Part shown: positions 4,708-58,066 of the stretch, piece after piece | Layout of the letters: the number at the start of each line of letters is the position of its first letter | How positions within the stretch are numbered: position 1 is the first letter of the stretch | Origin: Neorhizobium tomejilense | Lineage (GTDB): Bacteria > Pseudomonadota > Alphaproteobacteria > Rhizobiales > Rhizobiaceae | Reading direction: 5' to 3' | Assembly (NCBI GenBank): GCA_002968845.1 | Contig: PVBG01000009.1 | Location: 62,001-126,000 of the forward strand | Length of the DNA stretch: 64,000 nucleotides | Program-made: the position numbers and the translations under genes | The notes under the pieces: model-generated | Seen by the model: the letters and a program-made list of their open reading frames with translations, nothing else | Database searches by the model: none | What the model was told of the DNA's origin: nothing

Positions 4708-4744
4708 CCAGGTTCCAGGAATTGTTCCAATTCCTGGAACCTGG
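4708..4744. repeat. Perfect 17-bp inverted repeat with 3-base loop
   Basis: The arm CCAGGTTCCAGGAATTG (4708-4724) is repeated exactly as its reverse complement at 4728-4744, separated by TTC. The right arm contains the GGAAC -35 element of the EcfG promoter for the downstream gene. The repeat lies between the divergent MscS and GlsB/YeaQ genes, so it could be an operator, a cruciform, or a terminator-like hairpin insulating the two. Confidence 0.85.
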
Positions 4745-4760
4745 AACATTTCTTCGCGTT
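4736..4760 (+). promoter_or_regulatory. EcfG (general stress sigma factor) promoter, GGAAC-N16-CGTT
   Basis: GGAAC at 4736-4740 and CGTT at 4757-4760 are exactly 16 bases apart, the consensus for alphaproteobacterial EcfG sigma factors. The predicted transcript starts near 4767 and runs into the stress-family membrane protein at 4792, which fits the function. The -35 element sits in the right arm of the palindrome 4708-4744. Confidence 0.75.
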
Positions 4761-4791: not shown

Positions 4792-5043
4792 ATGGAACAG
4801 GCAGGTATCGGCTGGATCGCAGCCATCATCATCGGCGGCATTGCCGGCTGGCTCGCCGAAAAGTTCATGAAAAGCGACATGGGCTTGATCATGAACATCA
4901 TTCTGGGCATTGTCGGCGCCATCATCGCCAATGCCATTCTCGGCGTCTTCGGCGTCGTGCTCGGCGGCTGGATCGGCTACCTGATTGCCGGCTTCATCGG
5001 TGCATGCATCCTGATTGCCGTTGCACGCATGTTCCGCCGATAA
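4792..5043 (+). CDS. GlsB/YeaQ/YmgE-family stress-response membrane protein
   Basis: An 83-residue, almost wholly hydrophobic protein with three membrane segments rich in Gly/Ala/Ile and repeated G-x-x-G packing motifs (IGGIAGWLAEKFM near residue 15, LGGWIGYLIAG near 60). This is the transglycosylase-associated/YeaQ family, small inner-membrane proteins induced under general stress; the biochemical role is unknown. Start ATG 4792 follows a GAGGG site. An EcfG promoter (4736-4760) points straight at it, so general-stress induction is predicted. It converges on the DUF924 gene with only 11 bases between them. Confidence 0.9.
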   Translation: MEQAGIGWIAAIIIGGIAGWLAEKFMKSDMGLIMNIILGIVGAIIANAILGVFGVVLGGWIGYLIAGFIGACILIAVARMFRR

Positions 5044-8711: not shown

Positions 8712-8737
8712 AACCGGAAGCCATACCACTTGGTTCC
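8712..8737 (-). promoter_or_regulatory. Possible EcfG-type promoter, GGAAC-N17-GGTT
   Basis: On the minus strand GGAAC (8737-8733) is followed after 17 bases by GGTT (8715-8712), one base off the CGTT consensus. It would start transcription near 8705, just ahead of the ribosome site of the small secreted protein. The mismatch and the alternative 17-base spacing make it weaker than the site at 4736. Confidence 0.4.
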
Positions 8738-57576: not shown

Positions 57577-57601
57577 GGAACCTTCGCAGGCAGAAGACGT
57601 T
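57577..57601 (+). promoter_or_regulatory. EcfG promoter, GGAAC-N16-CGTT, ahead of the 41-residue protein
   Basis: GGAAC (57577-57581) and CGTT (57598-57601) are exactly 16 bases apart. The predicted start near 57608 is followed by GAAGGAG and the ATG at 57624, so the short gene would have a very short leader under the general stress sigma factor. Confidence 0.75.
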
Positions 57602-57623
57602 TGCCCGGCCGAAGGAGCGTCTT

Positions 57624-57749
57624 ATGCGCATTATATTCGTGGTCATGATCGTTTCGGTGCTCAGCATCCTGGCATTCAAATATGCCGACCAGTCGCTTGG
57701 CGGTGGCGACATCATGGCTTCACCGACGGAACTCTCGGCCCAGAACTGA
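57624..57749 (+). CDS. 41-residue single-pass membrane micro-protein
   Basis: A tiny protein: residues 1-19 form one hydrophobic helix (MRIIFVVMIVSVLSILAFKY), followed by a short polar tail with a Gly-Gly-Gly-Asp stretch. AAGGAG lies six bases before the ATG, and a perfect EcfG promoter lies 23 bases upstream, both strong signs that it is a real gene despite its size. No family is recognised. By context it is a general-stress membrane micro-protein, possibly co-transcribed with the next small gene. Confidence 0.7.
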   Translation: MRIIFVVMIVSVLSILAFKYADQSLGGGDIMASPTELSAQN

Positions 57750-57766
57750 CACGATCGCGTGGGGCC

Positions 57767-57791
57767 GGAACCTTCCCGTTTTCCGGGGGTT
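57767..57791 (+). promoter_or_regulatory. EcfG-type promoter, GGAAC-N16-GGTT, ahead of the 59-residue protein
   Basis: GGAAC (57767-57771) and GGTT (57788-57791), 16 bases apart, one mismatch from the CGTT consensus at its least conserved base. The start near 57797 would be followed at once by GAGGAG and the ATG at 57817. Confidence 0.6.
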
Positions 57792-57816
57792 GTCAGGCTA
57801 TAGAGGAGCCGTAGTC

Positions 57817-57996
57817 ATGAGCGCCCAGAATGTCCTGATTGCCTTGGGATCCGCCATCGCGGGCGGCCTTGTCGTTGCCCTTCTAATGCATCCCGCCGGA
57901 CCGACCGCCAGCACGAAGTCGGATCGCCTGAGTGGCCCTCCGGCAGAGACCGCCTTCCTGCCGGAACGCTTCGGCGTTCCAAGTTCGACCCAGTGA
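57817..57996 (+). CDS. 59-residue single-pass membrane micro-protein
   Basis: A small protein with an N-terminal hydrophobic helix (residues about 5-24, VLIALGSAIAGGLVVALLMH, containing GxxxGG) and a polar Pro/Ser/Thr-rich tail. GAGGAG precedes the ATG at 57817. It has its own EcfG-type promoter and is followed by a strong terminator (58026-58066). No family recognised. It is likely a general-stress gene like its neighbour. Confidence 0.7.
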   Translation: MSAQNVLIALGSAIAGGLVVALLMHPAGPTASTKSDRLSGPPAETAFLPERFGVPSSTQ

Positions 57997-58025: not shown

Positions 58026-58066
58026 AAAAAAGGCCGGCTCCTCTTTCCAGGCGCCGGCCCTTTTTT
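58026..58066. terminator. Bidirectional terminator between micro-protein and DUF2171 genes
   Basis: GGCCGGC (58032-58038) pairs with GCCGGCC (58053-58059) with an A-tract on the left and a T-tract on the right, so it can stop both the plus-strand micro-protein transcript and the convergent DUF2171 transcript. Confidence 0.85.

Follow-up and report, generated by a model that had tools for sequence, protein, structure and literature searches.

Two candidate stress-induced small membrane protein genes with conserved EcfG-type promoter boxes in Neorhizobium tomejilense and related Rhizobiaceae

Organisation of the locus

The window analysed here comprises 64,000 nucleotides of contig PVBG01000009.1 of Neorhizobium tomejilense. 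Two short open reading frames, encoding products of 41 and 59 amino acids (proteins 1 and 2), are found in tandem downstream of a gene coding for a Do-family protease and upstream of a DUF2171 gene, which is located on the opposite strand. The following features were identified:

57577-57601, + strand: EcfG-type promoter of protein 1, GGAAC-N16-CGTT, exact match
57612-57617, + strand: ribosome binding site of protein 1, AAGGAG, 6 nt 5′ of the ATG at 57624
57624-57749, + strand: protein 1, 41 aa, a helix (residues 2-26 in the model) followed by a variable tail
57767-57791, + strand: EcfG-type promoter of protein 2, GGAAC-N16-GGTT, exact match
57803-57808, + strand: ribosome binding site of protein 2, GAGGAG, 8 nt 5′ of the ATG at 57817
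57817-57996, + strand: protein 2, 59 aa, an N-terminal membrane helix, a linker and a conserved tail
57916-57981, + strand: tail motif of protein 2, residues 34-55, KSDRLSGPPAETAFLPERFGVP, with the family core K-x-x-R ... F-x-x-E-R-F
58032-58066, + strand: hairpin and T run 3′ of protein 2, before the convergent DUF2171 gene, by folding

A first-pass annotation of this DNA had described two open reading frames of these lengths, each with a good ribosome binding site and a GGAAC-N16-NGTT box, and a strong terminator behind the second, and all of these elements are present. The boxes end 22 and 25 nt before the start codons of proteins 1 and 2, respectively; that of protein 1 is perfect, while that of protein 2 deviates from CGTT by one base. 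The hairpin at 58032-58059 has a folding energy of -20.2 kcal/mol and is followed by a run of T residues, but was not among the sites returned by a simple terminator scan. In a mechanically derived list of open reading frames, the protein-2 frame appears as a 104 aa ORF with an ATG at 57682. The start at 57817 was chosen because the box, the ribosome binding site and conservation favour it.

The sigma-EcfG system and the frequency of its motif

GGAAC-N16-CGTT is the sigma-EcfG1 motif of Rhizobium etli (PMC3892343), and GGAACN16-17cgTT that of RpoE2 in strain NT-26 (PMC6011840), according to the sections of these papers that were consulted. The -35/-10 motif and spacing of the sigma-EcfG (RpoE2) regulon, as described for R. 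etli and Sinorhizobium meliloti, are thus the same as those found here, and PhyR, NepR and the ECF sigma factor are likewise encoded in the N. tomejilense genome. They form one cluster on contig 55 (L073), with PhyR and NepR identified by Pfam. The ECF sigma factor, which has a PhyR_sigma2 match, is taken as EcfG since its gene is placed beside nepR and phyR. The ATG of phyR is preceded at 43 nt by a GGAAC-N16-CGTT box, and a second ECF sigma gene elsewhere on the same contig is also located behind a box. Many EcfG-type boxes can be observed between positions 260000 and 279000 of contig 55 (L072), before genes for DUF892 and DUF2934 proteins, the second ECF sigma factor and two proteins that look Ku-like by eye; this stretch is likely a stress-regulon island.

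Overexpression of rpoE2 in S. meliloti raised the expression of 202 protein-coding genes, 150 of which lacked a predicted function, as well as the signals of probe sets in 56 intergenic regions (PMC3616915, sections consulted). Many targets without predicted function are a feature of both published regulons (PMC3892343, PMC3616915), and proteins 1 and 2 were not met in the consulted text of the two papers, their supplementary tables lying outside that scope. RpoE2 does not occur in the portion consulted of the main text of a paper on the S. meliloti small proteome (PMC10117765).

Two further boxes are found in the window. The first (4736-4760, + strand, GGAAC-N16-CGTT) lies 31 nt before a gene (4792-5043, + strand) for an 83 aa Transgly_assoc (PF04226) membrane protein, plausibly a further stress target. 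The second (8712-8737, - strand, GGAAC-N17-GGTT) precedes an ORF on the same strand, which starts 30 nt past it and encodes a small product without a Pfam match whose N-terminus resembles a signal sequence. In this genome, EcfG-type boxes are thus also found before genes for small membrane proteins of the Transgly_assoc and DUF1328 (PF07043) types, but these are registered Pfam families, and proteins 1 and 2 match neither.

Counting of the motif was rejected as evidence. The 64 kb window contains four matches to the box pattern against 1.83 +/- 1.38 expected, with at least as many in 12 of 100 shuffled windows, while the whole genome contains 112 CGTT-type matches against 100 for the reversed pattern. 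The genome-wide count is near background, and the box motif alone is therefore not significant. This is also the lesson of strain NT-26, where a looser RpoE2 pattern was matched before 469 genes and was considered too generic by the authors (PMC6011840, sections consulted). The conservation of the genes and of their boxes was therefore tested.

Distribution of the two protein families

Protein 1 is encoded in 43 of 57 genomes of the same genus, and protein 2 also in 43. Both genes are present in 41 of these genomes and neither in twelve, while two encode only protein 1 (G243, G247) and two only protein 2 (G224, G225). Their joint absence from 12/57 genomes indicates that both genes are dispensable. 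Of the 41 genomes with both genes, at least three (G202, G211, G228) have the two separated by over 150 kb. Scanning of named genomes yielded 25 loci with a protein-2 relative, ten of them from Neorhizobium records, with the nearest relatives, sharing 97% identity, found in N. vignae and N. galegae. The conservation of both reading frames among close relatives, on which the first-pass annotation had made its proposal depend, is therefore evident: both have been kept, with purifying selection as described below.

At the level of the family, protein 1 was found in 11/199 sampled genomes with a single sequence as query and in 17/247 genomes, representing nine genera, with a profile. For protein 2, the single sequence retrieved matches in 3/199 genomes, a genus profile in 13/297 and a broader profile in 19/247 genomes from eight genera, where one match (L125) is short and falls within an unrelated long frame. 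Among 327 genomes sampled across the order, protein 1 was found in two, both within the genus, and protein 2 in six, five of which belong to the family. The sixth (a 232 aa frame; e-value: 6.7e-4) is weak and is not believed, so that nothing convincing was found beyond the family in this sample for either protein.

The proposal that neither protein belongs to a known family was borne out, as the window proteins have no Pfam or NCBIfam match at e-values up to 1. Eleven protein-2 relatives gave single weak matches only (best e-values: Pfam, 0.039; NCBIfam, 0.049), and sixteen aligned protein-1 sequences gave none in Pfam. Their description as unannotated, judged on the plasmid records of relatives, is apt in part: the protein-1 type has no feature in 16 of the 17 listed plasmid records that are not marked as lacking annotation (20 of the 57 records, among the matches listed), while all three protein-2-type matches are annotated as hypothetical proteins. 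Protein-1 relatives are mostly without annotation on large Sinorhizobium plasmids, including pSymA of S. meliloti Rm41, and at least this one of the sixteen records has just three features overall. The pSymA relative (L193:3001-3123) is a 40 aa protein with a GGAAC-N17-AGTT sequence ending 29 nt 5′ of it. Supplementary tables may already include it among the intergenic transcripts that depend on rpoE2; a literature search of the consulted parts of papers, with supplementary target tables outside its scope, found no description of protein 1 or 2. With respect to the libraries searched, both families are new, whereas their kind, small single-helix stress membrane proteins, is already known.

Among further arrangements, tandem protein-1-type genes are found on contig 12 of G290 (L134/L141), with a box before the second only. 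In two genomes of the same genus (L005, L006), the contig starts 233 and 564 bases 5′ of protein 1, as would be expected if the gene were preceded by a repeat or an insertion element.

Conservation of the promoter boxes

A box was scored where GGAAC-N16/17-NGTT ended 15 to 45 nt 5′ of the start codon. The counts refer to distinct genes with upstream DNA among the matches listed, rather than to every genome with a match. They exclude frames of more than 110 aa and treat identical coding sequences as one; among the 56 protein-1 entries, one gene (L012) appears twice, with different starts, and one is a weak match (L139), while L193-L196 lie outside the counts. Among the matches listed, a box precedes 43/56 protein-1 and 37/56 protein-2 distinct genes, and its strict CGTT form 28/56 and 11/56, respectively. 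Shuffled upstream regions gave a mean of 0.025 (protein 1) and 0.05 (protein 2) boxes per 56 genes. Control ORFs of at least 120 aa from the same loci, which are mechanical six-frame ORFs with an ATG and many of them not genes, had a box in 5/1265 cases, and those of the window in 0/121. Unlike the motif by its frequency, its conservation at a constant position 5′ of conserved ORFs is significant when compared with the shuffled regions.

Within the genus, all 36 distinct protein-1 genes among the matches listed have a box, as opposed to 7/20 outside it, and stress control of the protein-1 family is therefore not universal. For protein 2, the corresponding numbers, again among the matches listed, are 23/38 within and 14/18 outside the genus. 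Thirteen of the fifteen box-less protein-2 genes listed for the genus start 44 to 158 nt behind a boxed protein-1 gene. Where the two genes are adjacent, the protein-1 box is present in 36/36 of the pairs listed; protein 2 has its own box in 14/15 listed pairs with a gap above 200 nt and in 8/21 of those within 160 nt (Fisher p = 0.0013, indicative of a trend only as the sequences are related). Two exceptions occur within the genus: one gene keeps GGAAC with an altered -10 element (L055), and one genome without a protein-1 gene carries a protein 2 without a box (L068). These data fit an arrangement in which a stress promoter, located directly before the gene or before protein 1, would nearly always be accessible to protein 2.

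The GGAAC before protein 2 could also be read as the 3′ arm of the terminator of the preceding gene (GGTTCCGG...CCGGAACC) rather than as a -35 element. In N. vignae and N. galegae (L076, L078), GGAACC lies within a hairpin of approximately -18 kcal/mol. Two relatives from the N. galegae group (L076, L082) have a gene located between the two micro-protein genes, with an FMN reductase gene (PF03358 in L076) in front of GGAACC, and here the hairpin could terminate that gene. Furthermore, GTTCC occurs within 25 nt 5′ of GGAAC at 11/42 protein-2 sites. The remaining 31 sites, including that of the window, are however without such an arm, and the hairpin can therefore not explain the conservation of the box in general. 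In the window, the gap between the genes (57750-57816) is 67 nt long and contains neither an FMN reductase gene nor the 5′ arm, yet the box is still there. The box is also found in other genera, in the 14 of 18 listed genes given above, and its distance to the start codon is kept, so that we consider the terminator-arm interpretation improbable. The presence of an FMN reductase gene between the pair in N. vignae is recorded here as a feature of that locus; short gaps are also found in other relatives.

The claim of the first-pass annotation that an EcfG-type promoter precedes each gene is supported by boxes conserved in relatives and by the PhyR, NepR and ECF sigma genes of the genome, with the qualification that some protein-2 genes have no box of their own. 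The putative promoter logic appears well supported by comparison, and its view that both genes are under stress control is probably right.

Sites of selective constraint and predicted structure

The median dN/dS of protein 1 is 0.157 among 35 distinct sequences of the genus, with 0.10 for residues 2-21 and 0.26 for residues 22-41. For protein 2, the median is 0.253 among 23 sequences, with 0.452 for residues 2-33 and 0.073 for the tail motif. These values are rough, as mean pS is near saturation (0.67 for protein 1 and 0.60 for protein 2) and the pairs are non-independent; the contrast within each gene is nevertheless clear in the sequences compared. Third codon positions carry 61% of the differences in protein 1 and 50% in protein 2. 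As rpoE2-dependent intergenic transcripts and small RNAs are known in S. meliloti (PMC3616915, sections consulted), the two transcripts might be small non-coding RNAs, or the ORFs chance frames behind promoters. These dN/dS values and third-position shares speak against this reading, as does the retention of the start codon and ribosome binding site while the DNA around them differs. It is already disfavoured by codon-level selection and we regard it as scarcely credible.

Constraint falls on the helix in protein 1 and on the tail motif, K[ST]xRLxG..F..ERF, in protein 2. S14, I15 and K19 of protein 1 are invariant, and S11 nearly so, in 17 aligned sequences, while K34, R37, F47 and R51 of protein 2 are invariant in 20 members chosen for diversity, among which the helix, the linker and the C-terminal extension vary. 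AlphaFold predicts a helix at residues 2-26 of protein 1 and 3-24 of protein 2, with both tails at low confidence. A periplasmic motif, KxDRL ... WP ... C, was not found in the window or in the loci of the relatives listed.

The size of protein 1, its hydrophobic helix and its scattered distribution are reminiscent of a type I toxin-like membrane peptide, and five genomes of the family have two protein-1 matches, some of them weak. A type I toxin would be expected to have a long leader that controls translation, and an antisense RNA. The leader predicted from the position of the box is however short (15-17 nt) and carries the strong AAGGAG ribosome binding site, and protein 1 has a single match in this genome. 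Furthermore, no sigma-70-like site is found on either strand between 56500 and 59000, which leaves room for an antisense RNA from another promoter. We consider a toxin function very improbable.

For protein 2, the weakly constrained helix and strongly constrained tail would also be expected if the helix were a signal peptide that is removed, setting the tail free in the periplasm as a peptide of some 25 to 35 residues. A lysine or arginine is present within residues 2-7 of 45/56 protein-2 sequences, in keeping with a signal peptide, and the helix ends in AVA or AIA in some relatives (L114, L115). A permissive [AVSTG]xA pattern lies between helix and motif in 44/56 sequences, which counts as weak evidence. 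The protein 2 of the window, by contrast, has no AxA at the end of its helix. Cleavage appears rather unlikely, and an uncleaved, membrane-anchored protein 2 is preferred.

Proposed mode of action

It is likely that the two are real genes for small proteins, distinct from each other, which belong to the general stress response and encode sigma-EcfG-driven single-pass inner-membrane proteins, of which one acts through its helix and the other through a periplasmic motif. The genes, their boxes, the place of constraint and the sigma system come from the comparison itself; from these we infer transcription, topology, docking and partners, as follows. Under stress, PhyR would free sigma-EcfG from NepR, and the holoenzyme would transcribe both genes from start sites predicted approximately 6 to 8 nt past each box. 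The resulting mRNAs would be short, with predicted leaders of about 15 to 20 nt and a strong ribosome binding site. Where relatives carry a box-less protein 2, it is probably expressed by read-through from the protein-1 promoter. Both products are predicted to enter the inner membrane as single helices, the N-terminus most likely inside and the C-terminus outside, a topology suggested by the basic residues near the N-terminus of most protein-2 sequences, although the form in the window has none within residues 2-7.

As constraint lies at opposite ends of the two proteins, their modes of action should differ. Protein 1 may act inside the membrane via a face formed by Ser11, Ser14, Ile15 and Lys19, probably packing against a larger membrane protein. 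In protein 2, the helix would serve as an anchor only, while the periplasmic tail motif, K[ST]xRLxG ... FxxERF, would dock on a partner in the envelope. The gene neighbourhood was rejected as a clue to function and names no partner, as the clustering of ORFs within approximately 10 kb was swamped by antisense ORFs. It suggested no more than that two loci of another genus (L156, L157) have the HlyD/DUF2171 surroundings in common.

Small single-helix, stress-induced membrane proteins are known in enterobacteria, where they are presumed to act on a larger membrane partner. Proteins 1 and 2 resemble these in size, single helix and putative stress control. The enterobacterial proteins however depend on another sigma factor, and the tail motif with its low dN/dS is a feature of protein 2.

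Tentatively, the protein-2 family may represent a new envelope-stress device of the Rhizobiaceae, in which a sigma-EcfG-induced anchor presents a periplasmic motif that would bind and switch a conserved envelope enzyme or transporter; the helix, length and neighbours would be free to change, whereas the motif and, for the most part, the promoter would stay. In the general stress response of alphaproteobacteria, many targets are without known function, and the two small families described here, which bear a clear regulatory signature, are added to them. The selection map, which points to the helix in one protein and to a tail of approximately 20 residues in the other, lends itself to simple knock-out, tagging and pull-down tests, and the presence of a protein-1 relative on pSymA of S. 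meliloti makes one of the families testable in a model organism.
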